A stretch of 38,939 bases of DNA from Elusimicrobiota bacterium (lineage in GTDB: Bacteria; Elusimicrobiota; Elusimicrobia; Elusimicrobiales; UBA9959), in contig JAHJSU010000297.1 in assembly GCA_018829985.1 (NCBI GenBank), positions 1-38,939 on the forward strand. The letters run 5' to 3'. Shown piece by piece: positions 14,636-37,132 of this stretch (position 1 is its first letter; each line of letters begins with the position of its first letter). The notes under the pieces were generated by a model. The model was not told where the DNA came from, made no database searches, and saw only the letters and a program-made list of their open reading frames with translations. The translations under genes were made by a program, and so were the position numbers.

Positions 14636-15412
14636 ATGGATAGAATGACGGTAATCGGTTTTACGCTGGGCGCCTTTGTCATGATATGGGGTATAGGCAC
14701 CTCAGGCATAGCCGATAAGCTGCTGAACCTGCACGGCATCGTGATCGTGCTGGGCGGGACTATCGCCGCCACGATCGTTAATACCTCATATAAGCGGTTC
14801 CTGACAGGCATCAAAGCCTTTGGCGATATCTTCCTGAAACACTCAATGCCCGGCGTGGAAGAGTGCGTGCGGACCGTGGTCCAGTTAAGCGATACCGCCC
14901 AGAAGCAGGGCGGCATAATGGCGCTTACTAATGTGGACGGCCGTTTTGCCGGCGGTTTCCTTAAAAGAGCCGTAAGCGTCGCCATGGTCAGCGCCCAATC
15001 GCAGGAAACCAGGAGCATACTTGAAGAGGAAATACGGCGCCGGCGGCTGAACATACAGGAAGATTCCAACTTCTACCGCACCATGGGCGTCTTGTCTCCG
15101 ATGTTCGGTCTTATCGGCACGCTTTTCGGCATCATCCAGACTTTAGGCAATATCTCCGACCCGTCGATGATCGGTAAATCCATGGCGACGGCCATCAGTT
15201 CGGCGTTTTTCGGCATCGCCCTTTCAAATCTCGTTTTCGTGCCCGTGGCCAATAAAATACGCCTCAGGGCCATGGACGAGACCCTGGTGCTGCAGCTGCT
15301 GCTTGAAGGCGTTATCGACATCATGTCCGGCAAGACCCCCCATTTGATAGAGATGCATCTGCGCGGCTATCAGCTTGAAGCGGCGGCCAAAGCCCCGGCC
15401 CCGAAAAAATGA
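14636..15412 (+). CDS. motA: MotA/TolQ/ExbB family stator protein, MotA-like
   Basis: MDRMTVIGFTLGAFVMIWGIG...FYRTMGVLSPMFGLIGTLFGIIQTLGN...AISSAFFGIALSNLVFVPVANKIRLR. Confidence 0.9.
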   Translation: MDRMTVIGFTLGAFVMIWGIGTSGIADKLLNLHGIVIVLGGTIAATIVNTSYKRFLTGIKAFGDIFLKHSMPGVEECVRTVVQLSDTAQKQGGIMALTNVDGRFAGGFLKRAVSVAMVSAQSQETRSILEEEIRRRRLNIQEDSNFYRTMGVLSPMFGLIGTLFGIIQTLGNISDPSMIGKSMATAISSAFFGIALSNLVFVPVANKIRLRAMDETLVLQLLLEGVIDIMSGKTPHLIEMHLRGYQLEAAAKAPAPKK

Positions 15413-15519: not shown

Positions 15520-16149
15520 ATGCGCTTTTACGAAAGAGAAGGCGAACTGGAAGACGAGCTTAACCGCGGCGCTTTGTGGGCTATAACCTACGGCGACCTG
15601 ATGAGCTATCTGATGATCTTCTTTATGATACTGTTCGCTTTTTACAGCACCAAAGATATCACTCCCCAGTTCATGAAGAAAGCCGTCGAGGAGGAGTTCG
15701 GCCTGGACACCAAAATCACCAAGAAGCTTTTTGACCCCAAGGAGGGCATACAGCAGATAGCCCAGGTGGAGATCTCGGCGAATAAGATAACCATAAATTT
15801 CTCGGACCCTATCCTGTTCGAGCCGGGGAGCGACCGTCTTAAGCCTTCGTCTTCTAGGCACCTTAAAATGTTGGTTGAGGTTTTCAACCAGCTGCCCAAT
15901 CCCGTACAGATAGAGGGCCACACCGACAACAGGCCGCTGGGCAAACGCGCCGGGTTCAAGTCCAACTGGGAACTTTCCGCCGCGCGCGCTTTTTCCGTGC
16001 TGAAGTATTTTCTTGAGCAGGGGATAGCCCCTGAAAAACTTTCGGCCGTCGGGTACGGCGAATTCAAGCCTGTAAAATCAAATGAAACGCCGGAGGGCCG
16101 TTCCTCCAACCGGCGCATAGAGGTGAACATCATAAGGCATGAGATATAG
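15520..16149 (+). CDS. motB: MotB-like stator protein with OmpA/MotB peptidoglycan-binding domain
   Basis: WAITYGDLMSYLMIFFMILFAF (Plug/TM with Asp); IEGHTDNRPLGK...SVLKYFLEQG...GYGEFKPV...NRRIEVNI. Confidence 0.9.
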   Translation: MRFYEREGELEDELNRGALWAITYGDLMSYLMIFFMILFAFYSTKDITPQFMKKAVEEEFGLDTKITKKLFDPKEGIQQIAQVEISANKITINFSDPILFEPGSDRLKPSSSRHLKMLVEVFNQLPNPVQIEGHTDNRPLGKRAGFKSNWELSAARAFSVLKYFLEQGIAPEKLSAVGYGEFKPVKSNETPEGRSSNRRIEVNIIRHEI

Positions 16150-16267: not shown

Positions 16268-18415
16268 ATGAAGCTTACCACCCGTTTTTTTATTATATTG
16301 CTGATGATAGCGGTCATCCCGCTGCTCCTGTCGGTGGCATGGAACATTTACCAGTATAATTCCAGCGTTACCAGCTACTACGACCTTCATAAAGGCATCT
16401 CCAGCCTGACGGCGGCCAATATAGACGAATGGCTGGCCGGCACCAACAGGGACCTCGCTTTCCTCTACGAAGTGGAGCATCCGCTGGCGAAAAAAGTGGA
16501 CGATATAAAGATCATACATCAGGCGACGCGGATAAACTCGGAAATAATGTCGCTGAGCGTGCTGGCGCCGGATAATAAAGAGCTCTACTTTCTGCAGAGC
16601 GAGAAGGTTAAAGCCGACAGGCCCCTGGCCTCTTATCAGGACGCTCTGGTGAAACAGGTGCGCGAGTCCGGGATAATCGCGCCCGGCAAAGTCCTGTGCC
16701 TGAAATCCCGCGCATATTTCCCGCTGGCCTATCCCATGGTGGACGGCCGGGTGGTGGTCTTTCATTTTTCCCTTGACAAGCTTTTTTCCAAGCTCAACTC
16801 GCAGAAGATCGGCAGGACCGGGGAAGTCATCATCACCGACAGTCGCGGACAGCCCCTGCCGTGCCAGCGGGTGGACCGCCAGAAGTTCGACGCCGCGGCT
16901 TTGCGCCTTTTCTTCAGGAACGGCGGCCGCAACGGCACCATCAACGGCTTTATCGTGAATGGGGAATCGTACGCCGGCGCTTATTCAGCGGTGGAAAACA
17001 TTAAATGGGCCGCCCTTTCCATCCAGAGCGAGGACGAGCTTTTCGGCCAGCAGAAAAAATCCATTTATGTTTTCGCCTTATTCGCCGTGGGCACTTTCGC
17101 CACGACCATTGTGGTGGTGATGCTGATCTCAAACCGCATTATCCGGCCGATAAACAATATGGTCAACGGCGTCAAGAAATTCCTTAAAGACAAGCATCTC
17201 GACGAAGTCATCCCGGCGGAAGGCTGGCCGGAAATAAAGAGTCTTGTGGGCATCCTGAACCGGCTTATGCTTGAACTGCAGGCCTACCGCGCTTTCCAGC
17301 TGAACCAGATCGTGGAAGAGAAAAACAAGGCGCAGGCCCTTATAGACACGATAACCGACGGCGTTATACTCGTGGACGACAGGGGCGGGCTCATCTACTC
17401 CAACCAGACCGCGCTGAAGCTTCTGGGCATCGCCAGGATCTCCGCCGACGTCGTGCTGCCGCGTTCCATAAAGAACGAAGCGTTCTTTGCCCAATTCTCC
17501 GGCCTGCTGGCGTCCAAGGAAAAATTCGTAAAGGCCGAAATGGACGCCCCGGTTCCCGGCGCCAGCCCCCCGCTGGTGAACAGTTACCGGATCATCACCA
17601 ACCAGTTCCTGCTGGCCACCCTTAAGCGCCCGGGCCGCGTCATAATAATGCGCGATATAACCAACGAAAAAGAGCTTGAGAAGGCCAAAGAGGACTTTTT
17701 CCACATGATAACCCACGACATGCGGGCGCCGCTGGCGACCATACAGGGTTACGTGGAAATGCTGATGAGAAAAGTACCCGCTTCGCCTAATACCGACAAG
17801 TATTTCAAGAGCATGCTTTATTCCTCCAGAAGACTGCGCGGCATGATAGACGACATCCTTAATACCACCAAGCTTCAGCACGGCACCATGGCGCTGCAGA
17901 TAGACAAGATCTCGGCCAACGACCTTATAACCCGCATCAGGGATAACCATGAGCCGGTGGCCACCCCCAAGAACATAAAGATGGCGACGGCGCCGTCGGC
18001 CGAAAACCTCGAGTTTTACGGGGATGCCGCGCTTCTTGAAAGGATCATAACCAACCTGGTCGGAAATTCTTTGAAGTTCACCCCGAGCGGAGGCAGCATC
18101 ACGCTGGGAACCGCTCAGGACGCGGAGAAAGTGTTTTTCTGGGTCCAAGACACCGGCGTGGGCATTCCGGCCGATAAAAAGGACACGATCTTTGAAAAAT
18201 ATTCCCAGATGGAGGAGCATAAGAGCCAGGGCTTCGGGCTGGGCCTTGCTATGTGCAAGATGACCGTGGAGCTTCACCAGGGCGGGATCTGGGTGGAATC
18301 CGAAGTGGGCAAGGGCAGTAAATTCATATTTACCGTGTCAAAGAAGCTTTCCCCCCCGGATGAGGGCAAGCCCGGAGATGCCGGCGTCAAACGAGCCGGG
18401 GCCGAAAAGGCTTGA
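16268..18415 (+). CDS. Membrane sensor histidine kinase (dCache-like sensor, HAMP, PAS, HisKA, HATPase)
   Basis: two TMs; FFHMITHDMRAPLATIQGYVEML; NLVGNSLKFTP; DTGVGIP; GFGLGLAMCK. Confidence 0.93.
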   Translation: MKLTTRFFIILLMIAVIPLLLSVAWNIYQYNSSVTSYYDLHKGISSLTAANIDEWLAGTNRDLAFLYEVEHPLAKKVDDIKIIHQATRINSEIMSLSVLAPDNKELYFLQSEKVKADRPLASYQDALVKQVRESGIIAPGKVLCLKSRAYFPLAYPMVDGRVVVFHFSLDKLFSKLNSQKIGRTGEVIITDSRGQPLPCQRVDRQKFDAAALRLFFRNGGRNGTINGFIVNGESYAGAYSAVENIKWAALSIQSEDELFGQQKKSIYVFALFAVGTFATTIVVVMLISNRIIRPINNMVNGVKKFLKDKHLDEVIPAEGWPEIKSLVGILNRLMLELQAYRAFQLNQIVEEKNKAQALIDTITDGVILVDDRGGLIYSNQTALKLLGIARISADVVLPRSIKNEAFFAQFSGLLASKEKFVKAEMDAPVPGASPPLVNSYRIITNQFLLATLKRPGRVIIMRDITNEKELEKAKEDFFHMITHDMRAPLATIQGYVEMLMRKVPASPNTDKYFKSMLYSSRRLRGMIDDILNTTKLQHGTMALQIDKISANDLITRIRDNHEPVATPKNIKMATAPSAENLEFYGDAALLERIITNLVGNSLKFTPSGGSITLGTAQDAEKVFFWVQDTGVGIPADKKDTIFEKYSQMEEHKSQGFGLGLAMCKMTVELHQGGIWVESEVGKGSKFIFTVSKKLSPPDEGKPGDAGVKRAGAEKA

Positions 18416-18533: not shown

Positions 18534-18908
18534 TTGATGTCTAAGATGCTGATAATAGACGATAATGTTGAGTTTCAGACCATGATATCTTGTTATTTTA
18601 CGGACCTCGGTTACACGGTTGAGCTGGCCAACAACGGCCGGGAAGGCCTGACAAAGGCAAAAACCATAAAACCGGATATAATACTGCTGGACGTAATGAT
18701 GCCCGACACCGGCGGCATAGAGGTCCTGAGGGAACTCCAGACCGACGACGAGACCAGGATAATCCCGGTCATAGTGATCACCGGCACTTATTTTGACGGG
18801 AACATGAAAGAACTTTTCAGGCAGGAATCCAACTGCCGGGAATTTTTAAGCAAAACCGCCGACCTTTCCCTGATACAGGCTAAAGTAGCGCCCCTGCTGA
18901 AGAAGTAA
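18534..18908 (+). CDS. Response regulator receiver protein
   Basis: MLIIDDNVEFQTMI...DIILLDVMMPDTGG. Confidence 0.92.
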   Translation: MMSKMLIIDDNVEFQTMISCYFTDLGYTVELANNGREGLTKAKTIKPDIILLDVMMPDTGGIEVLRELQTDDETRIIPVIVITGTYFDGNMKELFRQESNCREFLSKTADLSLIQAKVAPLLKK

Positions 18909-19152: not shown

Positions 19153-19521
19153 ATGCCTCATAAAATCCTCGTGGTTGACGACGAATCCGATTACCTTAAT
19201 ATCGCCGCCGCTATTTTAGGGTCCGAGGGCTATTCCGTGCTGAAGGCCGCCACCGGCGCCGAGGGGCTTCGCAAAGCCGTCGCGGATAAACCCGCGCTCA
19301 TAGTCCTGGACATAGGCCTGCCGGATATCAGCGGCCTGGACGTGAACCGCCGGCTTAAAAAAGACCCCTCCACGGCCGGGATACCGGTACTGCTTTTCAC
19401 CGTCAGGTCGGAACTTGACCTTGTGAAAAAAGCGCTCCAGGAGGGCGCGGCGGAATACATAATCAAGCCTTTTGATCCCGACCGGCTTATACAGACGGTC
19501 AAAAAACATCTTAAAAAATAA
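19153..19521 (+). CDS. Response regulator receiver protein
   Basis: ILVVDDESDYLNIAAAIL...LIVLDIGLPDISGLDV...YIIKPFDPDRL. Confidence 0.92.
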   Translation: MPHKILVVDDESDYLNIAAAILGSEGYSVLKAATGAEGLRKAVADKPALIVLDIGLPDISGLDVNRRLKKDPSTAGIPVLLFTVRSELDLVKKALQEGAAEYIIKPFDPDRLIQTVKKHLKK

Positions 19522-19654: not shown

Positions 19655-20353
19655 ATGCCTCCGCGTAAAAAAACACAAGTTGCGGCGCTTTCCCTCCGGC
19701 CTGAGATAGGCCGGCTCATTGCCGCGGCCCTGCCGGACGCGGTCTTATATAAGACCGCGTCAAGTTTTATCGGGGCGGTCCTGCGGCGCGCGCCCGAGCT
19801 GGCGGTTATAGACATGGAGTGCCCTGAGATAAGCGGGGCGGACCTTATACTGGTCTTAAGGCGGAACCCGGGCGCAGCCGCTATGCTGATAGCCGCTGTT
19901 TCCGCCGCTCCAAGGACTTCCCGCGAGATCGCCTCCGGTTTTGAAACCGGCGCCGATGAATATTTTGTCCTGCCCAGGGACGCCGGGCTGATGGGGCCGC
20001 GGCTTCTCAATCTGCTCGCGAACCGCCAGGCGCGCTCCGGCGCCGGGCCGGAAGCCGAGGCGCCGCTTAAAATAGGGGCTTTGGGGATTTCCACCGTTTC
20101 ACGGACGGTCGTGCTGAAAGGGCGCGAGCTGCCTTTAACTTCGCTTGAGTTCGATATGCTGCTTTATTTCGCGGGCAATGCGGGCAGGGTTGTCGGGAGG
20201 GGCACTTTGATCCAGCAGGTCTGGAAGGCGGATCTCGGCGTGAACCTGCGGTCGGTGGACAAACGCATCGAGGTCCTGCGCAAAAAGCTCAAGGGCTCGG
20301 GCGTAACCATCTCCACCGTCTTCGGCATAGGCTACATCTTCAAACCAGAATAG
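19655..20353 (+). CDS. OmpR/PhoB-type winged-helix regulator with degenerate receiver domain
   Basis: C-term LPLTSLEFDMLLYFAGNAGRVVGRGTLIQQVWKADLGVNLRSVDKRIEVLRKKL; N-term receiver-like with LAVIDME but no acidic pair. Confidence 0.85.
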   Translation: MPPRKKTQVAALSLRPEIGRLIAAALPDAVLYKTASSFIGAVLRRAPELAVIDMECPEISGADLILVLRRNPGAAAMLIAAVSAAPRTSREIASGFETGADEYFVLPRDAGLMGPRLLNLLANRQARSGAGPEAEAPLKIGALGISTVSRTVVLKGRELPLTSLEFDMLLYFAGNAGRVVGRGTLIQQVWKADLGVNLRSVDKRIEVLRKKLKGSGVTISTVFGIGYIFKPE

Positions 20354-20666: not shown

Positions 20667-22694
20667 TTATTTCAGCGGGGGTTCGCCGTGTTCGTCGGAC
20701 AGGGGGAGCCTTAATTCGGCGAGCAGGCCCCGGTCTTTTTTATTGGCTGCCGCGAACTCGCCGCCGTGCAGGCGCGCTATGCGGTTCACCAGGGCCAGTC
20801 CCAGGCCGACCCGGTCTTTTTTAGAGGTGTTAAAGGGCGCAAAAAGCCGCTCCAGCACGCTTTGGGGCAGGCCGGGGCCGGTGTCGTCAAATTTTATGGA
20901 CGCGTATTTCCCGTCCCCGCTCAACCCAAAAACTACCTTCAGCGAGGAACCCGGGGGCAGGTTTTCATACGCGTTTTTGATCAGCTGGTATAAGGCCATT
21001 TTGATCTTTTCCGGGCTTATATTTGAGCGCGCCCGGGTCGCGCCGATGTAGGCGGCGAACCCCAGCTTCTTGCCGTTGAAAGCTTTTTCCCACGGGACAA
21101 GGGTGTCGCTGACGAGCTGTTTAAGATCGGCGTCCTCCTTCTCGAATTCCCCCTCCTCCATATAGGTCTGCCAGGCTTTCAGCAGGTTCACCTCGCCGTA
21201 CAGGTTTTTAAGGGTCGGGGACAGATGCTTCGCCTGGACGGCTGAAAGACGGACGTTGAAAAGTTTGAGATCGCCGGCTATTTTAGAAAAGCTTCTCACT
21301 ATTTTTCCGGTGAACTCGGCCTGCTCGGTCCGTATGAAGCCGGAGAGCGTGAGATTGTGTTTTTTCAGCTTGTCCGCTTCAACTTCAAGGGCGGGTATCT
21401 TGGCCAGCTCTTTTTTCAGGGTGTCCACGTATTTTTCGCGCTCTTCAAGTTTTTTCAGGATGGAGCCCGCGTACTCTTCGGCCCCGGCGATCCTGGCTTT
21501 CAGGGTCTGGGCCTCGTTCTCAAGGGCCTTTATTTTAACGAGCGAGCGCTTGTTTATTTCGCGCTCCTGCCTTACGTCCGCACTGCCTTCGCGGATAAGG
21601 GCATTCAGCTTTTCCGTTTCGGCCTTTTTGGTTTCAAGCGCTCCGGTCAGCTCATCGTTGTCCAGGCGGCTTTGTTTCAGGGTTCCTCTCAGATTCGCCA
21701 GGTTCGACTGCAGGTCAAAGACGGTTCTCACCGCGCCCGTAAAATTCTGTTTCTGTTCCCCGGTCTTTAAAGCGGCGTTCTGCAAAGACAGCGCAAGGTC
21801 GGCGATCCTGGCGTCTTTGCCGCTCATTTCTTTTTGGAGCTTTTCGCGCTCAAGCGCCATCGCCGAGAGCTTTTCTTCAAGGTCCGCGCGCGCGGCCGTC
21901 AGGGCGCCCAGGTCCTGTTCAAATTTCCGCTTCTCCCGGGCGGAGATCTCCAGCCTGCCGGCGGATTGGCCAAGCTCGGCGGACAGGGCCTGGACTTTGC
22001 GCTTCTGAAGTTCCAGTTCCGTCTCAAGACCGTCTTTTATTTTTTCCAGGCCGCGGTTTTTTTCGCCGGCGCTTTCGGCTTCGGCCTTTATTTTCGCCAG
22101 TTCGTCCGAGAGCCCGGCGTTTCGCGCGGCTTCGCTTCCAAGCCGGGCCAGCAGGTCTTCAAAGACCGCTGGTTCCCTGCCGGCCGCGGCGCTGTCGCGC
22201 AATAAGGCCGCGCTTATCTCCGGCAGGGCCTTAAGCCCGTTTATCTTGCCGGACAGTTCTCCTATAAGCTTTTCTTTTTCCGCCAGGCGCTCTCCCGCGC
22301 CTCTCAGCCTTTCGCTGAGCGTTTCCAGCCGGCTTTCCTTCAGGGCGTGCAGATTTTCGGTCTCGGCCATCAGGTTCCGGAAACTGTTCACCTCTTCCTG
22401 GAGTCTCCGGGCCTCGCGCGCCGAGGCCAGGGCTTCCTTAAGGGTCGCGGCGTCGCGGTCTAGTTTCCCTTTTAAAGAAGATATTTCCTCTTTTAAGGCC
22501 TGTTCCCTTTTGGCGCCTTCCCGGAGGCCGTTTTCAAGGTGGGCCAGCCTGCTTTTCAGGGCGTCGGCGTCGCGTTTATTTACGGCGTAAGCGTCGGTGA
22601 GCTTGATGGACTCCTCCTGCGCGGCCTTCATGGCCGTCCAGAGATAGTCTATCTCCGCGTAGATTTCCGGCGCTTTGCTATTTTCAACGTCCAT
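20667..22694 (-). CDS. Soluble long coiled-coil protein with C-terminal histidine-kinase-type ATPase domain
   Basis: ~400 aa heptad-rich coiled coil; C-term LIKNAYENLPPGSSLKVVF, FDDTGPGLP, VGLGLALVNRIARLHGG. Confidence 0.88.
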   Translation of the reverse strand: MDVENSKAPEIYAEIDYLWTAMKAAQEESIKLTDAYAVNKRDADALKSRLAHLENGLREGAKREQALKEEISSLKGKLDRDAATLKEALASAREARRLQEEVNSFRNLMAETENLHALKESRLETLSERLRGAGERLAEKEKLIGELSGKINGLKALPEISAALLRDSAAAGREPAVFEDLLARLGSEAARNAGLSDELAKIKAEAESAGEKNRGLEKIKDGLETELELQKRKVQALSAELGQSAGRLEISAREKRKFEQDLGALTAARADLEEKLSAMALEREKLQKEMSGKDARIADLALSLQNAALKTGEQKQNFTGAVRTVFDLQSNLANLRGTLKQSRLDNDELTGALETKKAETEKLNALIREGSADVRQEREINKRSLVKIKALENEAQTLKARIAGAEEYAGSILKKLEEREKYVDTLKKELAKIPALEVEADKLKKHNLTLSGFIRTEQAEFTGKIVRSFSKIAGDLKLFNVRLSAVQAKHLSPTLKNLYGEVNLLKAWQTYMEEGEFEKEDADLKQLVSDTLVPWEKAFNGKKLGFAAYIGATRARSNISPEKIKMALYQLIKNAYENLPPGSSLKVVFGLSGDGKYASIKFDDTGPGLPQSVLERLFAPFNTSKKDRVGLGLALVNRIARLHGGEFAAANKKDRGLLAELRLPLSDEHGEPPLK

Positions 22695-22701
22695 ATATAT
22701 A

Positions 22702-22730
22702 CTTGCGTCTAGCCCCTATTCCCTAGACGC
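22702..22730. repeat. Heptad-type palindrome overlapping the stop of the 22723-24162 gene
   Basis: gcgtctagcccctattccctagacgc (8-bp perfect arms). Confidence 0.65.
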
Positions 22731-24162
22731 TTTCCCTTTTGACTTCTATCTTGCCTTTACCGCTTAAATCAAGGGCGGCCGAGATTACCCTGGCCCGTGA
22801 ATTGATGACGACGTCTTTCTCCTGGACGGTCGTAAGCAGGTCTTTTACGATAAGCTTTATATCGTCGGGGAACAGTTTGAGCACGTTCGTGACGGAGGCT
22901 TCAGGCGCGCCCTGGAGCGCCGCCGCCCAGTCCTTGTAGGGCATGGATATGACGACGGGTCTCAGGTTCTTGTCGTCAAGTCTGCAGATATCGTCGAATG
23001 TAACCAGCGAGTCCCTGAGCTTCCCCGCGCCGGCCGCGTCGACGCGGGCCAGGTTGTCCATGATCTCGGACCGGTCCGCTTCGTCCACCAGGCTAAGGAG
23101 CCGGCCGAGTTTCTCCGCCCCCTTAAGCGATTTCTCAAGTTTTAAGCGCAAATTGTTTTCTATCTCCATGAGTTTTTCCGGTTCCACGGCTTTAAGCGCC
23201 ACCATTTTAGAGGTGACCATCTGCCTCTTTACGGGGTCAAAGGCAAGGAGTATCTTGGACGAAATGTGAGGCTTTTTATCGGCCATGTTGGCGATAACCA
23301 CCGCGGCGTCCTCGTCGGTTTCTTCACCCAGCAGTTCGGCCGTTTCCTTCGGCGGGAGCTTTTCTATAAAATCGAAGGCCGACTGGACCGTCAAAAGCCC
23401 CGCGCCCGCCGCCCCGGCTTCCACGTCTATTATCTCGGGGTATTCACCTTCCGGGCCTTCCCCGCCGGCCCCGGCTCCGCCGCCCATGCCGGGCCCGCCG
23501 GCCAGGGGCTGGCTTGCGAGGGCATTTACGCGCGCGTAATCAAAGAAATCCGACAGGAGTTTCCCTCCCAGAGCGTAGGCTGACAGCAGAACGATCAAAA
23601 TTACGACCGCGGCCAAACCGGCGATAAGGAGAACCCGGCGGCTGTCGGGAGCATCCAAAAGGTTTTTCCACCAGGGAAGCATATCGGCCCTGGCCATGAT
23701 CAGGCTGTCCCCCCTGGCAGCGTTCAGCCGGAGGATATCGGAGACCAGAAGTTTCACGGCGTTGGCCTGGGCGTCGGGCACGCTTCTGTCAAAGATGACG
23801 GATACGCTTATCTTCTTTATCCTGAATTCCGTGGTGTGCTGCGTTTCCGCTTTCTGCTGCTTTATGTATTCCCCGGTCTTTTCAAGGATGGAGACCTGGG
23901 CGTAGCCGGGGAGCGACAGCACGGCTTCCGGCGGGGTGCCGGATTCGGTCCTGCTCTTTAAAACCGATTCCCCCTCCACGTTTACGAATGCCCGGCTTTT
24001 CTCTTTGCCGACCAGCTGGGCAAGAAGGCGGGAAAGGTCTTCCTGCATGCGCGCCGAGATCTCCGCCTCTTCGGCGCCGGGCGCAGGCGGCATCTGCTGG
24101 GCGCGGGGCGCGCCCAGAAAAGCGGCCGTAACGATAAACGCCAATAAGTATCTTTTAACCAT
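22723..24162 (-). CDS. Truncated FliF C-terminal/TM region fused to FliG middle and C-terminal domains
   Basis: Signal peptide; EFRIKKISVSVIFDRS...LRLNAARGDSLIMA (FliF C-term like); TM VLLIAGLAAVVILIVLLSAYALG; then SLVTFDDICRLDDKNLRPVVISMPYKDWAAALQGAPEASVTNVLKLFPDDIKLIVKDLL (FliG_C-like). Confidence 0.8.
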   Translation of the reverse strand: MVKRYLLAFIVTAAFLGAPRAQQMPPAPGAEEAEISARMQEDLSRLLAQLVGKEKSRAFVNVEGESVLKSRTESGTPPEAVLSLPGYAQVSILEKTGEYIKQQKAETQHTTEFRIKKISVSVIFDRSVPDAQANAVKLLVSDILRLNAARGDSLIMARADMLPWWKNLLDAPDSRRVLLIAGLAAVVILIVLLSAYALGGKLLSDFFDYARVNALASQPLAGGPGMGGGAGAGGEGPEGEYPEIIDVEAGAAGAGLLTVQSAFDFIEKLPPKETAELLGEETDEDAAVVIANMADKKPHISSKILLAFDPVKRQMVTSKMVALKAVEPEKLMEIENNLRLKLEKSLKGAEKLGRLLSLVDEADRSEIMDNLARVDAAGAGKLRDSLVTFDDICRLDDKNLRPVVISMPYKDWAAALQGAPEASVTNVLKLFPDDIKLIVKDLLTTVQEKDVVINSRARVISAALDLSGKGKIEVKRESV

Positions 24163-24232: not shown

Positions 24233-24331
24233 GAAAGGCTCAAGGCTAAAGGATAAAGGCTAAAGGACGGAAAAATCTTTTATTTTTCTGTTTCTTTCCC
24301 TCATCCTTAAGCCTTCATCCTTTATCCTTCC
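24233..24331. repeat. Inverted short-word array (AAGGATAAAGGCTAA)
   Basis: aaggctcaaggctaaaggataaaggctaaagga ... tcatccttaagccttcatcctttatcctt; same words at 35848-35948. Confidence 0.75.
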
Positions 24332-25767
24332 CGTCCGCCGTAGGCGGACGGGTTAGCCGGTATCTCAAACCAGAAGTCGGAGCCGGCGCCCGGTTCCGAA
24401 TCAAAGCCGATGCGCCCTTTGTGCATGTCTATGATGCCTTTGGCCAGCGCCAGGCCGAGCCCCGTGCCCCCGGCGGCGTCGACGGATGAGGCCTGGCCGA
24501 AAACAGAAAACAGTTTCCCGCGGTCCTCAGGGGGTATGCCGCGTCCGGAGTCCGTTACGCGGGCCCGGAAGATCTTTCCATCCGGGGAAAAACCCGCGCT
24601 GACCGTTATTCTGCCGCCTGCCGGAGTGAATTTTATGGCGTTCGAGATCAGATTCGTGAATACATGCGCGAGGAGCTCCCTGTCCAGGCTTATGGGGCGG
24701 CCGGGTTCGGCCGCTATATCAAGCGTAAGCCCGTTTTCCGCCGCTTTCGGTTTAAAGAAGGCCGTTACGTCGCGCGCCAGAGCGCAGGGATCCGCCCGGG
24801 TCTTGTGCAGATCCATCTTTCCCCGCTCTATTTTCGCCAGGTCCAGCAGGCTGGTAACGAAATTAGCCAGCCGCCCGGCGTTGGCCTTTATGCGCTCAAG
24901 ACTTTCCTTTTCCGCTTTAGGCCTGCGTGTCCGGAGCAGAAGCGACACGTGGCTTTCTATGGCCCCCAGCGGGGAGCGCAGTTCATGGGTCACGGAAGCG
25001 GTAAAATCTTTTTTTATGGTCTCAAGCTCCAGCAGTTTCTGGGACATGGCGTTGAAATTCGCGGCAAGCTGGGCTATCTCGTCCGAACCTGAAATATCCA
25101 CCTTATGCCCGAAGCGGCCCTCGCCCAGGACTTTTGTCTCGGCGGAGAGGGCTCTGAGCCGTCTGGTAAGGTGAAAGTTCAAGACGAGGGCCAGCAGCGC
25201 GGAAACGCATACCGCGGCGGCGAGCGAGTATAGCAGGCGTCTTAAAAGTTCAGCCAGAAGCCTGGAGCGTTCCTGAAGCAGGTATTTGCGGGAAAGATAA
25301 AGCCTTGCCCCGTAATCTCCGGCCCTGAATTCCTCCGGAGGGCCGTCTTTCGAGGGATGCCCGCCAAACAGTCCGGCGCTGTGCCCGCCGGGTTGTATTG
25401 GCGGGGGTCCGCCGTGCTGTGTGGCGGAAGGGATGAGGGATGAGGGATGAGGGTAACCGGCGCGGGCGGCTTTCGCGGCCCGGGGCCTGACGGGCTGCCA
25501 GGACTTGCCGTTAAAAGTCTCGATCGCGGCGATCTCGGGATGATAAGCGTAAAGATTTGAAAGATAGTCCACCAGCATCAGCGGATCGCGGGCAAGGTTC
25601 GCTTCGGCCAGGATATTTTTCACTCCCTGGGCGGTAAGACTTATTTTCTGGAGTTCATTGGCGATGATGCCGCTGCGCTGGAAGCGGAAAAATATGAAAG
25701 AGAGCAGGCCCGCCGAAAGCAGGGCGGTTATCACCAGCGCCGCGTTCAGTTTATGGTAGAGCTTCAT
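24322..25767 (-). CDS. Membrane sensor histidine kinase (HAMP, HisKA, HATPase) with repeat-encoded insert in the sensor domain
   Basis: TM1, HAMP, SVTHELRSPLGAIESHVSLL, NLISNAIKFTP, DSGRGIPPEDRGKLF, GTGLGLALAKGI. Confidence 0.93.
   Translation of the reverse strand: MKLYHKLNAALVITALLSAGLLSFIFFRFQRSGIIANELQKISLTAQGVKNILAEANLARDPLMLVDYLSNLYAYHPEIAAIETFNGKSWQPVRPRAAKAARAGYPHPSSLIPSATQHGGPPPIQPGGHSAGLFGGHPSKDGPPEEFRAGDYGARLYLSRKYLLQERSRLLAELLRRLLYSLAAAVCVSALLALVLNFHLTRRLRALSAETKVLGEGRFGHKVDISGSDEIAQLAANFNAMSQKLLELETIKKDFTASVTHELRSPLGAIESHVSLLLRTRRPKAEKESLERIKANAGRLANFVTSLLDLAKIERGKMDLHKTRADPCALARDVTAFFKPKAAENGLTLDIAAEPGRPISLDRELLAHVFTNLISNAIKFTPAGGRITVSAGFSPDGKIFRARVTDSGRGIPPEDRGKLFSVFGQASSVDAAGGTGLGLALAKGIIDMHKGRIGFDSEPGAGSDFWFEIPANPSAYGGREG
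25366..25453. repeat. Repeat cassette inside the histidine kinase CDS
   Basis: cccgccaaacagtccggcgctgtgcccgccgggttgtattggcgggggtccgccgtgctgtgtggcgga + ggatgagggatgagggatgaggg; related to 50-92. Confidence 0.7.
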
Positions 25768-26066: not shown

Positions 26067-28091
26067 CTACCGCGACAGCCTTATGATGCGTTCCAGGGCT
26101 TTTTTTGCCTGTGAGTTTTCCGGGTCCAGTGTCAGTATCTTTCTGAAATTGTCGGCTGCTTTGCCGTAATCTCCCTTGGTGTAGTAATCCGCCCCTGTCC
26201 GGTAAAGCTTCTCTATTTCCCTGGCGTTGCCGGAGCCCGTGGCCGGTTTTTCAGCCGCGGCGGCCGGCGCCGCCAGGGCCTCTCCGCCCCGTAGGTTCCC
26301 GGTTTCCATGCCCTCGGGTTCCCAGGCTCCCTGGCCCGGGGCCTTCTTTCCGGCTTCGCTGACCATTTTTGTCAGTTTTTCCTTTTCCGCCGGGTCGGTT
26401 TCCTTTTTAACGGCGGTTTCCCAGTTCTTGCGGGCCTGGGCGTAGTTGCCCAGCAGATAGTTGCAGGAGCCTGTTTTTTTAAGTACGAGAATATTCCCGG
26501 GATCGAATTCCAAGATCTCCTGCAGCTTGATCAAAGCGTCGTCGTATTTTTTGGCGGCGTAGAGCGCGTCCGATTCCTGGAGTTTATATTCCACATACCC
26601 GCGGTTGAAGCCCGGTGGGACCCTGTCGGCTTTTATACGGGAGGTTTCCTCCACCTTGTCCAGGAAATTGGATAATGCGGTGTCCCGGGGACTTTCCCCC
26701 TGGGAGAAAGCCAGCAGTCTGACGGCTTTGGCGTCGTAGCCCCTTAAAAAGTGCTGTATCCCGGCCGACAGCATTTGCTCCCCCGGGGTGCGTTGCGCCG
26801 CGTCTTTAGGTATTGAGGGATAGAAGGCCGCCACCAGCCCCATGCGTTTCACCAGGTTGATCACGGAGGCGTTGGGCAGCAGGTCGTTCGCCTTGTCCAT
26901 CAGCGTCCTGTTCGCCGCGTAATATTTTTCCTGGTTTACCAGGGCCTTGACGTCCTTAAGGCGCGGGTCGTTCAGGTTCATGGTGTTCCGCAAGCCGGAG
27001 TAGTCCGGGCTTTCTCTCAGTTGTTTATACTCGCCGAGAAGCTGCGCGGCATGCTGCTCGTCGGAGGTAAGCGAACCGAAATGGTAGGCCAGGGCCAGCC
27101 TATGGTTGCCGACGGTGCCGCGGACCGTGCCGAGCGGTATTGAAAATCCGTAATCGAACTGGATTTTGTTTATTTTGTAGGACAGCCCGGCCGTCACCTG
27201 CCTGAAATCCCTGTCCCCGGCGCCAAGGGACGCCCTTATTCCCACATCCCCCCTGTCAAGGCTCGGAAAAACTTTTTCAGCCGCGAAAATAAAATCCTTG
27301 TCCAGCTTGCCGGCCGGGCCTTTTTGCATTCTTGCCTCGGCCGTCATAATCATCCACAGGCTTTTATAGGAGCCCCCCAACCTCATTTTCATGGGGACCG
27401 GGTCCGCGGAAGCAAAACCCACGTCGGCCTGCCTTATGTTCATCACCGCCGCGCCGATGGTGTATCTTTTTGTGAGGTTATACACAAGGCCCGCGTCTAT
27501 ATCAATCGCGGATTTTGAGTTTTTCCCCATAAGCACCGGGTCCCCTTCACCCGTGGCGTAGATCCCGTCCATGGCGTTATAGGATTCGTCCAGCCTTGAA
27601 AAGGAATGGGTCAGATATTTGACGGAGGCGCCGGCCGCGAATTTTTCAAATGGTGTGTTTTTCGGCAATCTGAAACCGTATGAGGCCTGGAGGGCGCTTT
27701 CAGTGTATACGCCGGACAGCGAAAACTGGCTCCACAAAAAGCCCGCCGTGCCCAGGCGGCCGCCCCATATGGGAGCGGCTATAACCAGATTTGTAAGCCC
27801 CAGGTTTGAGCCGTCGTCTAAGCCTGAATAGAGCATGGAATGCGAGGCCATCACTTTCGGCCTTTCCACAAAGGCGAGGCCCGCCGGGTTGTAATAGACC
27901 GAACTGGCATCGTCGGCTATGGCCACAAAGGCGTTGCCCATGCCGGGTACTCGCGCGCCTACGCCCAGATCTTCAAAAGCCGCAAAAACAGGGGCTAGCG
28001 TATAGGGGCTAGGGGATAGGGAAAAAACAGCCAACGCAAACAACAGCGATTTTTTCCGCCGGTACGATTTTAATTTTGCCGAAAATTTCAT
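26067..28091 (-). CDS. PorV/UPF0164-like outer-membrane beta-barrel protein with C-terminal TPR repeats
   Basis: LGVGARVPGMGNAFVAIADDASSVYYNPAGLA; TPR-like C-term YYTKGDYGKAADNFRKILTLDPENSQAKKALE. Confidence 0.85.
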   Translation of the reverse strand: MKFSAKLKSYRRKKSLLFALAVFSLSPSPYTLAPVFAAFEDLGVGARVPGMGNAFVAIADDASSVYYNPAGLAFVERPKVMASHSMLYSGLDDGSNLGLTNLVIAAPIWGGRLGTAGFLWSQFSLSGVYTESALQASYGFRLPKNTPFEKFAAGASVKYLTHSFSRLDESYNAMDGIYATGEGDPVLMGKNSKSAIDIDAGLVYNLTKRYTIGAAVMNIRQADVGFASADPVPMKMRLGGSYKSLWMIMTAEARMQKGPAGKLDKDFIFAAEKVFPSLDRGDVGIRASLGAGDRDFRQVTAGLSYKINKIQFDYGFSIPLGTVRGTVGNHRLALAYHFGSLTSDEQHAAQLLGEYKQLRESPDYSGLRNTMNLNDPRLKDVKALVNQEKYYAANRTLMDKANDLLPNASVINLVKRMGLVAAFYPSIPKDAAQRTPGEQMLSAGIQHFLRGYDAKAVRLLAFSQGESPRDTALSNFLDKVEETSRIKADRVPPGFNRGYVEYKLQESDALYAAKKYDDALIKLQEILEFDPGNILVLKKTGSCNYLLGNYAQARKNWETAVKKETDPAEKEKLTKMVSEAGKKAPGQGAWEPEGMETGNLRGGEALAAPAAAAEKPATGSGNAREIEKLYRTGADYYTKGDYGKAADNFRKILTLDPENSQAKKALERIIRLSR
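27991..28021 (-). repeat. C-rich heptads encoding part of the signal peptide (SPSPYTLAP)
   Basis: ccctatcccctagcccctatacgctagcccc on the coding strand. Confidence 0.85.
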
Positions 28092-28112: not shown

Positions 28113-28166
28113 CCCCACCCTAGCCCCTAGCCCCTAGCCCCTAGCCCCTTTCCCCTATACCCTATC
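28113..28166 (-). repeat. (GGGGCTA)n heptads in the 5' leader of the PorV-like gene (transcript sense)
   Basis: coding-strand gatagggtataggggaaaggggctaggggctaggggctaggggctagggtgggg. Confidence 0.9.
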
Positions 28167-28563
28167 TTACAACCACCACCAGGCCTTTATAGGTCTTATC
28201 GTTAACGATCACTTCATATATGTAGATTCCGCCCGGCGCCCTGCCGCCGGAGTTGGGATCCCATTCAAGATAATAGTAAAGACGAGGTGTTTCGAATACG
28301 ATAGCCTTGAGCCGCATGGAAGCTAATCTCTCGCCGCGCAGCCCGTAAATGGACGCTGTTATGTGAAAATCCCTGGGGTTATAACACTTGAAAATAAAAG
28401 TATCGTTTTTCTTGTCGCTGTTGGGAGTCACGGTCCTGTTCAGCGCGGCCGAATTCCCCAGGGTCCCGGCGGCTCCGGCGTTCTTCTCCAACGTCGTAAC
28501 CGACAAAAAAAGCGCCGCAAGCATTGCCGGCGGGATCAAAAAGGGCGTCAGATGTTTTTTCAT
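28162..28563 (-). CDS. Signal peptide plus a single FlgD-Ig/CHU_C-like C-terminal domain
   Basis: TVTPNSDKKNDTFIFKCYNPRDFHITASIYGLRGERLASM...WDPNSGGRAPGGIYIYEVIVNDKTYKGLVVVVR. Confidence 0.75.
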   Translation of the reverse strand: MKKHLTPFLIPPAMLAALFLSVTTLEKNAGAAGTLGNSAALNRTVTPNSDKKNDTFIFKCYNPRDFHITASIYGLRGERLASMRLKAIVFETPRLYYYLEWDPNSGGRAPGGIYIYEVIVNDKTYKGLVVVVR

Positions 28564-28941: not shown

Positions 28942-30597
28942 ATGAATATTCTGAGGCATAGCAAAAAGGCAATAGCGGTTTTGGCGGGTCTGTTCGCCGT
29001 TACCCTGGCCCCTAGCCCCTATACCCTATACCCTGCCTTCGGCGCCAGGGTGGAGAGCGCTCATTTCTCGGACGTGAACGGCGGCTTTTCCTATGGGACG
29101 AAATATAGTTATTCGCCCAGTTTCGAGCATAACGGCAACGTGCAGGAAACGGCCGTTTCAACGGCGCAGGCCGGCGCATTTTCGGGCAGAAGCGGCATAC
29201 TGGCGTTTTACCCCCAGCCCTCCCCCGTAAACGACCTGGCGCTGGTCTCCATTTCAAGCTACAGCCTGCGCATCACCTGGACGGCGCCTGTGGCCAACTG
29301 GTACCGCAATACCGGCGCGATTGAAGGATATCTCCTGCGCTACACCAGCGCCGCGTACATGTTCACGGATGCGGCTTTTGCCTCGGCCCAGGACGTGTCC
29401 CAGAACTGGACTCCGCTGGCCGTCGGCGTCCGGGATACGCGCATCATCGAAGGGTTCAACACCGGCACCACTTATTACTTCGCTATTGAGAGCGTAAACG
29501 ACCAACTCCTGCGTTCCGAGCTGTCCAATATAGCCTGCGTGTTCGCTGTGGTCCCCCTGGTGCCCATGAATTTCAAGGTAACTGCCCACCCGACCTCTGT
29601 TACCCTGTCCTGGATAGCTCCGGTCGGTTTTGCCAACCGGATGCCGTTCAATGACCGCTTCAACCCGGTCTACCCGTATGAGATAAAAGCCTATCAGGTT
29701 TTCCGGGCCACGGCGCCGGCCAACGCGGACTGGTTCCCGCTTGGTCCGGAATTATCGTCCGATACCTTCCACTGGACCGACAACACCGCTGAGGCAGGCC
29801 AGCAGTATTTTTACCATGTAAAGGCCCTTAATCAGGCCGGATTTTCCGCCCCGTCATATACCCAGGGCATTACCGGCGCCTCGCTTTATTTTATAGCGGC
29901 CGACAATACCAGCCTCCTTGAGATCCCCGGCGACGGACTTGGCGATTTTGTCTCCGACAGCGCGAACCCGGACCCGATGAGCATTTATACCGTGGAGATA
30001 ACCTCTCACGCGGAAGACCTGGGCGGCCGGGTGGTAAAATCGGTCGAATTTTCCGCCTACAAGGGCGGGATAGAAAGGGACGAGCAATTCAAACTCTCCA
30101 AACCGGCGATCTTGAAGATATATTACAGCACCGGCGGCGCCGTCGTCCCAGCCGGTTCAAACGCCGCGGCCTTGAGCCTTTATTATTACAACGGCGCCAA
30201 ATGGCTTCAGTTTTACGGCAAGGTGAATGAAACGGATAAAAATGTGGAACTCAAGACCACAATGCTCGGAAAATACCAGCTCCGGTCCGTTGAACGCTCC
30301 GTCTCTTTCTCCGCGGACAGGGCGGGACTTTCCAACAGGCTGATCACTCCCAATAGCGACGGCAAAAATGATAATATGGTATTCGTTTTCGACAGTCCGA
30401 TGGATTCCGGCGTCAAAGGGCGTATCTACGATATGAAAGGGGCTTTGGTCGCGAAGATGACCCCCACCGGACCCGTAAGCAATTCCCTGGTCTGGGACGC
30501 CAAAAGCGGCGGCCAGATTGTGCCCGGCGGAGTCTATATCTACCAGCTGGAGTCCGGGGGCAAGGTGTATAACGGCACGGTCGCGGTGATAAAGTAG
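28942..30597 (+). CDS. Secreted fibronectin-type-III-like protein with FlgD/CHU_C-like C-terminal domain
   Basis: signal peptide; LRITWTAPVANWYRN, VTLSWIAPVGF; C-term LITPNSDGKNDNMVFVFD...GGVYIYQLESGGKVYNGTVAVIK. Confidence 0.85.
   Translation: MNILRHSKKAIAVLAGLFAVTLAPSPYTLYPAFGARVESAHFSDVNGGFSYGTKYSYSPSFEHNGNVQETAVSTAQAGAFSGRSGILAFYPQPSPVNDLALVSISSYSLRITWTAPVANWYRNTGAIEGYLLRYTSAAYMFTDAAFASAQDVSQNWTPLAVGVRDTRIIEGFNTGTTYYFAIESVNDQLLRSELSNIACVFAVVPLVPMNFKVTAHPTSVTLSWIAPVGFANRMPFNDRFNPVYPYEIKAYQVFRATAPANADWFPLGPELSSDTFHWTDNTAEAGQQYFYHVKALNQAGFSAPSYTQGITGASLYFIAADNTSLLEIPGDGLGDFVSDSANPDPMSIYTVEITSHAEDLGGRVVKSVEFSAYKGGIERDEQFKLSKPAILKIYYSTGGAVVPAGSNAAALSLYYYNGAKWLQFYGKVNETDKNVELKTTMLGKYQLRSVERSVSFSADRAGLSNRLITPNSDGKNDNMVFVFDSPMDSGVKGRIYDMKGALVAKMTPTGPVSNSLVWDAKSGGQIVPGGVYIYQLESGGKVYNGTVAVIK
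29003..29035 (+). repeat. C-rich heptads encoding part of the signal peptide (LAPSPYTLYP)
   Basis: ccctggcccctagcccctataccctataccctg. Confidence 0.85.
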
Positions 30598-30663: not shown

Positions 30664-33600
30664 ATGAAATTTTCAACAGAATTTAAATCATACCGGTGGA
30701 AAAAACCACTGTTGTTTGCGTTGGCTGTTTTTTCCCTATCCCCTAACCCCTATACGCTAACCCCTGCCTCCGCCGCCATAAACCAGAGCATAAACTATCA
30801 GGGTTTCCTGGTCAGCAAAACCACGAATCTGGCCGTGGATTCTCCGCAGGACATGAAGTTCGCGATCTATGACGTTTTAAACGGCGGTTCGGCGTTATTT
30901 ACCGAGAGCCGCTGCAATGTGCCGGTCTCAAGAGGCCGCTATGATGTGGAGATCGGCTCCGCTACCTCCGGCGGCATTCCGGCTGATATCTTCCAAAACC
31001 TGGGCCTCTGGCTTGAAATACAGGTGGATTTTGACGGGGACTGCGCAGGCACTTATGAAGCCATGCTGCCCAGGGTGCGTCTTCAGGCAGCGCCTTTCGC
31101 TTTTAACTCGCTTTACGCTTCCACGGCATCGGCGGGCCCCGCTTTTTCGCCGGGCGGCACCCCCCCTTTCAAGGTGGATATAATAGGGGCGCAGGACGAG
31201 AGCACGAACGGGGCTGTGACCGTTTCCTCCAATCTTTTCGTGCTTGGCGGCATCTCGGTAGGCAGTATCTCCCCCGGAATGCAGTTAAGCGTAAGTGGCG
31301 TGGTGGAAAGCAAAGGGGACTGGCCGGTCTGCGGCTTCGACCCCAATAACTATACCTGCGGATTCAGGTTCCCGGACGGCTCGGTGCAGATCACAGCGTC
31401 GGGCATCACTAAGTGGTACACGGCAGACGGTCCCAAAGACCTCTACAATTACGAGTATGGCAATATCGGCATCTCCACGAACAATCCCCAGGCAAAGCTC
31501 CATATCTCAACCGGGCCCGGCGAAACAGGGGATGTCTTCAGAATAGACGCCGGTTCCACCAAAGTTTTCAATGTGACGGGCCAGGGCAACGTCTACGGCA
31601 ATTATTTCCACGGCAACGGCGCGAATCTCACCTCGGTCAACGATTCAACCAAGGTGAGCAAGCGAGGCGATAACATGACCGGCACGCTTTACATTTCCAG
31701 CCCGCAGTACAGCTCCGTCTCCGGCGCGCGCTTGATCGTGAACGACGCGATCGGCATTGTCGGGAGGCGGCTGGAGTTCACGACCAATGTGGAAATATCC
31801 TCCACCACGTCCTCTTCGACACCCGCCGGCAGGTGGGGCGGCTTATACGTCAGCACCCATGTCTGGTTAGGCGGCGGGAGCAAAATTATCGGCGACGGCT
31901 CCCAACTGACCGGCGTGATCTCCGAGGATAACTCTAAAGTCTTAAAGACCGGCGATACCATGAGCGGACAATTGATAATCTCAGGTTCAAGCGTGACCAT
32001 AATAACCACCAACACCGCCGCCGCCCCCTATTCCCTTGCCGTCACCACCGACGCCGCGATGACGGCCTGGCACCTTTATGTTTCCACGGGCGGCAGCGTA
32101 GGCGTGGGAACAAACAACATGACCCATAAATTGCGGGTGGAAGGCGATATTATGGCGGTTTCAAGCATAACCGCCGAGGGCGGTTTTTATACTCCGGGAC
32201 CGTTAAGCGCGGATTCCATAAACCTGTTTAACAGTATCACCGCTACAACCGCCACTTTTACCGGGGGCTGGGGATTTCCGGGGGACAAGTACAGCATTGA
32301 GACCGCTTCAAGTATACTGGTGCGCACCGGCGGCATCATGGTTTCTGCCGGCGCGGTGACGGCGCCGTATTTTATCGGCAACGGCTCACAGCTCACGAAT
32401 GTACTCGGCACCGATACCGGCAAAGTTTCTAAAACCGGGGATACTATGACCGGGCCGCTTGTCCTCAACGGCGACCTTACCGTAACGGATTCAAGCGTCA
32501 CCGTGATCAATACTTCCCCTTCCGATACCTACGTTTTTATCGCCTCTACGGCCACGGCTCCCGATTCCTACGCTCTTCTCGTGGACAACCAGGGCCGTGT
32601 GGGCGTTCATGTCGCACTTCCGGCTTCCTACCTGGACGTCTATAAGGAGATGCAGATCATAAACCCGGCCGGCTCGGCCAATATCCGCATAAACACATTA
32701 GGGGGGTCCGGCTATATAAGGTGGTCCGACGCTTCTCTTGCTCCCGGCGGCCTCCAGGGCGTGCTCGGTTTTCCGGCCGGCACGAGGGATTTTCTCTATA
32801 GGGCGGCCGCTTCCGATCCCGCCAGCAACGGGGCGGAAGTTTTCCGCATAACATCCGATGATATAGGCAACTGGAAATTCGGGATCGGAATCAGCGCCCC
32901 CGATGAGAGCCTGCATATCAATGCGAATATGCTGGTCGGCCTGAATTTGGCCGCGCCGGCGCTTTATGTCAGCACAACTTCATCGGCGGTCGGCATTTCC
33001 ACCACTAATGTGTCCCATAAACTGGTCGTCGCCGGCGGCATCCTGGCTGTTTCAAGCATCACGGCCGGGGGCGGATTTTACGGGGACGTGTACGGGGACA
33101 TGTACGGGAAACTGTACGGCGGTATCGACATTTCCTCCCTTACCCTGCCCGGCGACAAGGGCATAGGCAGCCACTTCGCCATGCTTAAAGTCGGGGAATG
33201 GACCGACGATGACTATACCGTCGTCATAGGCACCAATAATTCCATTACCGGCAATTATTATGACATGGTGGTGACCCCTGCGGGCAGGGTAGGCATAGGC
33301 GTGAATACCCCGGACACGGATGTCATGCTCCATACGATAAAGGGCATACGGATAGGCCGTAGTGGCGATTACGATGACGGCTATGTAGGCGCGTTTCTGG
33401 ATCTGCAACCGGACTCCGGCGCTACATATATAAAGTGGGATGAGAGGTACGCTTCAACACGCAAAGGCGTTCTAGGATTCATCACCAGCACCTTGCCAGG
33501 CGGCTATGACTTGCAATACAGGACAGGCGCCATCAATATGACGGGCGGCGATGAGGCGCTGCGGATATACCAGGCGGGCGGCGCCGTATTCAGGTCGTCG

Positions 33601-34155
33601 CTTACCATTACGGGCACGCTGAACGTGGCGGGTACCTCCGATATTTTAAACGTGGGCGTTTCCAAGCTGGTCGTTAAGATGGACGGCAAGGTGGGAATCG
33701 GAATTGCCGCTCCTACCGTCACGCTTGACGTAAACGGAGCGCTTACGGTAACGGGCTCAAGCGTTACCGTGATCAATACTTCAAACGCCGATTCCTACGC
33801 GCTTCTCGTCTCCACAATCGCCGATTCCAACTACTACTCGCTGGTCGTTACCACCAATGGCAAGGTGGGGATAGGGACGGCTTCTCCGGCTGAAAGGCTG
33901 GAGGTTAACGGCAAAGTAAAGGCGACCGGTTTCGCGGCCTCGCGGGAGTGGATAAGCAACACCTGCGCGGTGGGTGTCGCCCCGTGCACTGCGAGCTGTA
34001 CGGCCGGGAAGCTGGTTCTGGGCGGCGGGTGCTCCAACACGTTAGGACTTTTCGTGATGGAAACATATCCATCCAGCGATACGGCCTGGATCTGCGACTA
34101 CAACGACACCACCGGCAGCATAACGGCCTACGCAATCTGTTCCACCGTGGAATAA
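30664..34155 (+). CDS. Large secreted surface protein with repeated tail-fibre-like modules
   Basis: signal peptide; repeats GNGSQLTGVISEDNSKVLKTGDTMSGQL, GNGSQLTNVLGTDTGKVSKTGDTMTGPL, GNGANLTSVNDSTKVSKRGDNMTGTL. Confidence 0.85.
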   Translation: MKFSTEFKSYRWKKPLLFALAVFSLSPNPYTLTPASAAINQSINYQGFLVSKTTNLAVDSPQDMKFAIYDVLNGGSALFTESRCNVPVSRGRYDVEIGSATSGGIPADIFQNLGLWLEIQVDFDGDCAGTYEAMLPRVRLQAAPFAFNSLYASTASAGPAFSPGGTPPFKVDIIGAQDESTNGAVTVSSNLFVLGGISVGSISPGMQLSVSGVVESKGDWPVCGFDPNNYTCGFRFPDGSVQITASGITKWYTADGPKDLYNYEYGNIGISTNNPQAKLHISTGPGETGDVFRIDAGSTKVFNVTGQGNVYGNYFHGNGANLTSVNDSTKVSKRGDNMTGTLYISSPQYSSVSGARLIVNDAIGIVGRRLEFTTNVEISSTTSSSTPAGRWGGLYVSTHVWLGGGSKIIGDGSQLTGVISEDNSKVLKTGDTMSGQLIISGSSVTIITTNTAAAPYSLAVTTDAAMTAWHLYVSTGGSVGVGTNNMTHKLRVEGDIMAVSSITAEGGFYTPGPLSADSINLFNSITATTATFTGGWGFPGDKYSIETASSILVRTGGIMVSAGAVTAPYFIGNGSQLTNVLGTDTGKVSKTGDTMTGPLVLNGDLTVTDSSVTVINTSPSDTYVFIASTATAPDSYALLVDNQGRVGVHVALPASYLDVYKEMQIINPAGSANIRINTLGGSGYIRWSDASLAPGGLQGVLGFPAGTRDFLYRAAASDPASNGAEVFRITSDDIGNWKFGIGISAPDESLHINANMLVGLNLAAPALYVSTTSSAVGISTTNVSHKLVVAGGILAVSSITAGGGFYGDVYGDMYGKLYGGIDISSLTLPGDKGIGSHFAMLKVGEWTDDDYTVVIGTNNSITGNYYDMVVTPAGRVGIGVNTPDTDVMLHTIKGIRIGRSGDYDDGYVGAFLDLQPDSGATYIKWDERYASTRKGVLGFITSTLPGGYDLQYRTGAINMTGGDEALRIYQAGGAVFRSSLTITGTLNVAGTSDILNVGVSKLVVKMDGKVGIGIAAPTVTLDVNGALTVTGSSVTVINTSNADSYALLVSTIADSNYYSLVVTTNGKVGIGTASPAERLEVNGKVKATGFAASREWISNTCAVGVAPCTASCTAGKLVLGGGCSNTLGLFVMETYPSSDTAWICDYNDTTGSITAYAICSTVE
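30734..30767 (+). repeat. C-rich heptads encoding part of the signal peptide (LSPNPYTLTP)
   Basis: ccctatcccctaacccctatacgctaacccctg. Confidence 0.85.
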
Positions 34156-37051: not shown

Positions 37052-37132
37052 TGTATCCCCTCCTGTTTTCCGGTCCGGATTTTTCCGGTAAACGCGCGCG
37101 GGAGCTTCCCCGGCCGGTCTAAAGCACATCGT

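Follow-up and report, generated by a model that had tools for sequence, protein, structure and literature searches.

In the flagellar motor, a textbook machine, the rotor is coupled to an export gate, a rod, and a filament. Artificial FliF-FliG fusions in Salmonella still rotate (PMC4768692). A natural short FliF-FliG fusion has been described in the Chlamydiaceae, which are non-flagellated (Bergeron 2016, PMC4768692); it combines an SctJ-like RBM2 and another RBM-like region with no more of FliG than its middle region, and occurs together with FlhA and an injectisome (PMC4768692). Ion-driven motors also act outside the flagellum. During gliding of Bacteroidota, the ion-driven GldLM motor moves adhesins exported by the type IX system (PMC8986121, PMC9389320), but GldL and GldM show no clear homology to MotAB in sequence and work without a FliG rotor, and the AglRQS motor of Myxococcus, a member of the MotA/TolQ family that drives gliding without a flagellum (PMC9389320), likewise lacks a FliF/FliG rotor. 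For the Elusimicrobia, a published comparison reported no flagellar genes (PMC7031533). We found no report of motility in the uncultured organisms studied here in the literature that we searched, nor, in literature that mostly excluded subscription papers and preprints, any description of FliF-FliG fusions in Elusimicrobiota.

The window that we analyzed (a contig stretch of 38,939 nucleotides from a groundwater-type Elusimicrobiota bacterium) encodes such a fusion on the minus strand at 22723–24162, as an intact ORF of 479 amino acids with an ATG start and with Pfam, NCBIfam, and PDB profile matches. The initial annotation had read this ORF as the C-terminal region of FliF, a transmembrane (TM) segment, and the FliG middle and C-terminal domains in one chain, and profile searches bore this out for both halves. 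A signal peptide (residues 1–22, 24097–24162), whose cleavage was predicted from the sequence, is followed by an RBM3-like periplasmic domain of FliF (residues 30–160, 23683–24075; profile matches to the FliF S-ring and SpoIIIAG in the PDB, a YscJ_FliF_C match, and alignment), a TM helix called by hydropathy (residues 174–200, 23563–23643), a Gly/Pro-rich linker that was evident in the sequence and modeled with low confidence (residues 212–260, 23383–23529), the FliG middle domain (residues 262–347, 23122–23379; Pfam, the FliG M-C structure profile, and alignment), and the FliG C-terminal, torque-bearing domain (residues 370–473, 22744–23055). The last of these was the clearest (Pfam FliG_C, PF01706, residues 370–473, 47.6 bits, E 2e-12, cut-off 23.3), whereas FliG_M (PF14841) fell slightly below its cut-off (residues 272–345, 24.5 bits, cut-off 25) and YscJ_FliF_C rose above its cut-off of 23.8 bits only when the first 215 residues were scanned alone (25.3 bits, as opposed to 22.8 bits at residues 98–155 of the full protein). 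The NCBIfam fliG model TIGR00207 covered residues 257–474, and a profile built from nine orthologues matched solved FliG M-C structures, the best being 1lkv (E 1.6e-18). An MgtE-like domain, which reached only 20 bits, was rejected.

For the FliF half, a profile of the N-terminal parts of 12 fusions matched the FliF RBM3/S-ring structure 9yh6 over nearly the whole domain (E 3.4e-10), as well as full FliF chains and SpoIIIAG (E 2.6e-4), the latter belonging to RBM3 ring proteins that have neither FliG domains nor a stator partner. The domain of the fusion has a beta-collar insert and, in the alignment, an invariant LP(G) motif, and, judged from these structure-profile matches, the retained piece of FliF is RBM3 with its collar insert. 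RBM1 and RBM2 are absent, with only ~150 periplasmic residues and one strong TM segment besides the signal peptide, and Pfam found no FliG N-terminal (FliF-binding) domain, the place of which is occupied by the FliF part and linker. Hence the earlier suggestion that the long ring-building region of FliF is missing proved right with respect to RBM1 and RBM2 but not with respect to RBM3, itself a ring-forming domain. An AlphaFold model computed from nine sequences was good for the FliG part and poor for the RBM3 part (mean pLDDT 57.6), and we used the FliG part alone for structure matching; FliG structures came first in a Foldseek search, and the modeled FliG_C matched 1qc7 and the FliG chain of 8ucs, in which FliG is bound to MotAB, with TM-scores by target of 0.82 and 0.83, respectively.

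A chance ORF was rejected: the fusion is a real gene under purifying selection, because its dN/dS relative to an 89%-identical orthologue was 0.14, as low as that of a housekeeping control, the neighboring adenylosuccinate lyase gene (0.17). Orthologues, which have variable N termini, were found in 27 genomes (the source genome included) at identities of 51% or more, and the named relatives were all Elusimicrobia in a homologue search that used the single window protein as query and reached close relatives only. Homologues with the same architecture proved to be widespread. The source genome, 96% complete, contains four FliG_C genes, all within FliF-FliG fusions, and in the phylum as a whole FliG_C was found in 121 of 296 genomes, at 1–8 copies each. 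Among the 79 distinct FliG ORFs that we read from fetched loci, 75 had a FliF part, and the other four comprised two flagellar FliGs, an ORF located at the end of a contig, and a FliG-TPR ORF. This last ORF (L121:9335–10375, contig C15 of genome G037) encodes 346 amino acids of FliG M-C plus TPR, in a genome without FlhA. In a FliG tree, in which some long branches were unsure, the fusions formed groups that each spanned several families and were broadly taxonomic within themselves, and by this sequence comparison they fall into old paralogue clades that span the phylum. Directly 3′ of a 527-amino-acid fusion elsewhere in the source genome (contig C323) lies an ORF, cut by the contig end, that encodes a long coiled coil with an internal repeat (L013 2746–3936).

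The initial annotation had also raised the prospect that a complete, separate FliF and FliG and a full flagellar operon might lie elsewhere in the genome. None was found: our searches of the source genome detected no FlhA and no FliM/N, and thus no recognizable flagellum. Across the phylum, FlhA occurred in only three of the 296 genomes, and FliM/N exceeded the cut-off in the same three (G217, G032, and G247; loci L122–L125 and L047). Only two of these three were among the 121 carriers of FliG_C, leaving 119 carriers without export gate or C-ring partners. Because FlhA or FliM/N was so rare, the FliF-FliG fusion is almost always flagellum-free. G217 served as an internal control, in that it encodes separate flagellar FliF and FliG alongside one FliF-FliG fusion, which indicates that the two systems are distinct.

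These distributions bear on two explanations in which the fusion would not form part of a motor of its own. The first is that it is a decaying or domesticated remnant of a lost flagellum, devoid of motor function, as might be suggested by its flagellar homology and by the three related genomes that retain flagellar genes. A remnant would have to be reconciled with purifying selection, repeated duplication, persistence throughout the phylum without FlhA, a new, conserved linkage to outer-membrane genes (described below), and the presence of both systems in G217, and we consider it very improbable. The second is that the fusion belongs to an injectisome. The FHIPEP-family export gate is common to flagella and injectisomes, and no member of this family was found in the source genome or in 293 of the 296 genomes, which makes an injectisome part the least probable of all the readings considered here, notwithstanding that this role has been proposed for the Chlamydia protein, a fused FliF-FliG in a non-flagellated bacterium (PMC4768692). 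The fusion of the window also differs from the Chlamydia fusion in having RBM3, both the M and C domains of FliG, and MotAB, and in having no export gate. On this evidence both explanations were rejected.

We then considered the genes around the fusion, which in the window form a cluster of 20 kb extending from a MotA gene (starting at 14636) to a gene for a large repeat protein (ending at 34155). The plus strand encodes a MotA-like stator subunit (14636–15412; MotA_ExbB, 75 bits, and a full-length match to NCBIfam MotA/PomA) and a MotB-like stator subunit (15520–16149) with a TM aspartate in the motif YGDLM and an OmpA peptidoglycan-binding domain. MotA keeps its two TM prolines, and because these are kept together with the proton-carrying aspartate and wall-binding OmpA domain of MotB, the stators look capable of ion conduction and wall anchoring. 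The two genes lie ~6.6–7.3 kb from the fusion, on the opposite strand and in a different operon. Beyond the cluster, at 36056–37897, two adjoining minus-strand ORFs (357 and 254 amino acids) had no Pfam match.

The gene order of the window recurred in relatives with 51–60% identity and, in part, in another family of the class with ~30% identity. We counted neighbors in 40 fusion loci that had at least 5 kb on each side and had been chosen by their FliG hits rather than by their neighbors; because many of the type A loci among them are from close relatives, these loci are not fully independent. MotA was within 10 kb of the fusion in 31 of the 40 and MotB in 32, compared with a chance expectation of ~3% for a gene of the MotA/ExbB family (6 copies in 3.5 Mb). 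The linkage to MotAB recurred across all groups of fusions. In the source genome, two of the six MotA/ExbB ORFs were TolQ/ExbB-like, and three of the four MotA-like genes were at fusion loci. The nine loci without MotA within 10 kb possibly rely on a MotA encoded elsewhere. Fusions of other types had layouts of their own: in four loci (L015, L105, L106, and L126) the layout was a single operon, FliFG-MotA-MotB(-MotB′), and in three others (L108, L116, and L117) a giant protein, a PorV-like barrel, FliFG, a coiled protein, MotA, and MotB were encoded in succession.

Some of the fusion operons contained tandem MotB-like pairs (L015 15018–16327, L106 7382–8805, and L119 14051–15422), in each of which one member had C, N, or G in place of the TM aspartate; it is possible that these proteins form heterodimeric stators. 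A shortened MotA-like protein of 192 amino acids, without most of the cytoplasmic domain, is encoded on contig C275 of the source genome (L012 1252–1830) and was closest to the MotA of TPR-type fusion loci.

On the rotor side, the conservation of the torque residues was partial. FliG_C has five conserved charged residues for torque (E. coli numbering), and in the alignment the window protein keeps only the equivalent of D288. Most other fusions kept two or three of the five, namely K/R264 and one or both of the acidic residues at 288 and 289, and had lost R281 and R297. The EHPQ motif of the FliG middle domain, through which FliM is bound, is ETDE in the window protein and was changed in every fusion that we aligned, the nearest form being EEPQ in L111.

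Between the stator genes and the fusion, the plus strand encodes a sensor histidine kinase with dCache, PAS, HisKA, and HATPase domains (16268–18415), the place of which is conserved, followed by two CheY-like single-domain response regulators (18534–18908 and 19153–19521) and an OmpR-type response regulator (19655–20353), all identified by domain matches. Directly downstream of the fusion on the minus strand is a gene for a long-coil histidine kinase-like ATPase (20667–22694), which in the relative at L080 overlaps the fusion by 4 bp, and upstream of the fusion, also on the minus strand and also in a conserved place, is a gene for a membrane histidine kinase of HAMP-HisKA-HATPase type (24322–25767). 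The FliFG ring might instead be a non-rotating scaffold that senses load or the state of the envelope and feeds the kinases, MotAB then serving as channel or sensor; kinases on both flanks, CheY-like regulators in the cluster, and the partial loss of torque residues in fusions of the window type speak for this. We think this improbable, since fusions of other paralogue types (for example L105, L106, and L015) have MotAB yet no adjacent kinases, and since MotB has kept its proton-carrying aspartate.

On the other side of the fusion are genes for outer-membrane and surface proteins. The minus strand encodes an outer-membrane barrel resembling PorP/SprF and PorV, with C-terminal TPRs (26067–28091; PF11751, 42 bits, and PorV_fam, 63 bits), and a small secreted CHU_C-like protein (28162–28563) with a weak match, the relative of which in L081 was above the cut-off. 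The plus strand encodes a secreted fn3 protein with a C-terminal CHU_C type IX sorting domain (28942–30597) and a large repeat protein, probably a surface protein, with weak profile matches and a conserved place in the cassette (30664–34155). CHU_C exceeded the cut-off in the fn3 protein of the window and also in both of the L081 counterparts. A barrel with TPRs, matching the PorP/SprF and PorV/PorQ families, was within 3 kb of the fusion in 36 of the 40 loci, and in one type of fusion it passed the PorV-family cut-off, with 108 bits. In TPR-type loci, genes for giant proteins of 2,000–2,400 amino acids with a C-terminal FlgD_ig-like domain (L108:8–7231 and L116:30–6206) lie ahead of those for the PorV-like barrel and the fusion.

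The source genome also contains an SprA-like translocon gene (contig C144, 546–5678; L139). PF14349 (SprA) had missed this gene, which was recovered using a relative's protein as query; it is 57% identical to a protein of genome G124 that itself scored 113.5 bits with TIGR04189, below the strict cut-off of 200. Divergent SprA-like translocons of ~1,700–1,850 amino acids were found with Pfam in 36 of 200 sampled genomes of the phylum, including genomes without FliG_C (such as G014 and G029), and a search for GldM that had no working positive control returned zero matches in the 296 genomes. These results raise the possibility that FliFG-MotAB powers type IX secretion, replacing GldLM/PorLM as the energizer of an SprA-type translocon. 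The SprA-like gene in the source genome and in about one-fifth of the sampled genomes, the PorV-family barrel adjoining the fusion, and the zero matches to GldM in that same uncontrolled search are all compatible with such a role. We nonetheless consider it unlikely, although the strongest of the alternatives, because several paralogues per genome with different cargo genes better fit dedicated surface machines and because SprA-like genes are also found where FliG_C is missing.

The explanation that we favor, and think moderately probable, is that the fusion is the rotor of an ion-driven, MotAB-powered motor without a flagellum, whose torque is transmitted to a surface complex of outer-membrane and type IX components. 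We infer that the protein forms a ring in which each chain crosses the membrane by its one TM helix, placing RBM3 on the periplasmic side and FliG M-C on the cytoplasmic side, and that wall-anchored MotA5MotB2 stators from the same cluster contact FliG and turn this ring. In a motor that has neither rod nor filament, the periplasmic ring would have to serve as the exit for torque, which could then pass to the PorP/SprF-PorV-like barrel with its TPRs, the most constant of the outer-membrane neighbors. Surface proteins that carry CHU_C and are exported through the SprA-like translocon of the type IX system would then be moved, or else helped in their secretion and positioning. Gliding or adhesin movement would be the likely output, under the control of the kinases on either side of the fusion and of the CheY-like regulators. 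In favor of such a motor we counted the homology to RBM3 and FliG, the fold match of the modeled FliG_C, the linkage to MotAB and the barrel, the stator residues, CHU_C and SprA, the dN/dS value, and the paralogues; counted against it were the partly kept torque residues, the separate operon of MotAB in the window, the nine loci without MotA, the low confidence of the RBM3 model, and the literature search that turned up no motility report for these organisms. The initial annotation had imagined a minimal rotor retaining only the membrane anchor and the torque-receiving surface. The MotA and MotB genes in the window and their linkage to fusions throughout the phylum strongly support the idea of a rotor, but it would be less minimal than imagined, with RBM3 kept besides the anchor and torque surface.

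Compared with flagellar FliF/FliG and MotAB, the proposed motor has homologous RBM3, FliG M-C, MotA, and MotB and the same expected membrane topology. Its rotor differs in being one chain without RBM1/RBM2 or FliG_N, in lacking FliM/N and FlhA, in its altered EHPQ motif, and in its linkage to outer-membrane/type IX genes. Its likeness to GldLM is one of working rather than descent, each being (for our motor, as proposed) an ion-driven inner-membrane motor linked with the type IX secretion system and with adhesins at the cell surface (PMC8986121, PMC9389320), and by this analogy we propose a gliding-like output from an engine different from GldLM. The fusion family is unexpected and conserved, and it stands outside the flagellum. 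Its component homologies are to known kinds and place it as a variant of the flagellar rotor and stator, and there is a fair chance that the machine as a whole represents a new class.

A broader reading, to which we give somewhat less than even odds, is that the phylum has evolved an entire class of rotary engines that work without a flagellum. In these, MotAB-turned FliF-FliG rotors, several per cell and some accompanied by a second MotB that lacks the proton-carrying residue, would drive different surface proteins exported by the type IX system, so that parts of the flagellar motor would make up a new machine for gliding or surface transport. If so, a rotor–stator pair that persists and diversifies without gate, rod, or filament would show what the smallest working motor needs. 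It would also have implications for the evolutionary assembly of the flagellum, would add a type of engine to those known for gliding or type IX secretion, and would provide a testable molecular function for many proteins in a phylum that is almost uncultured.
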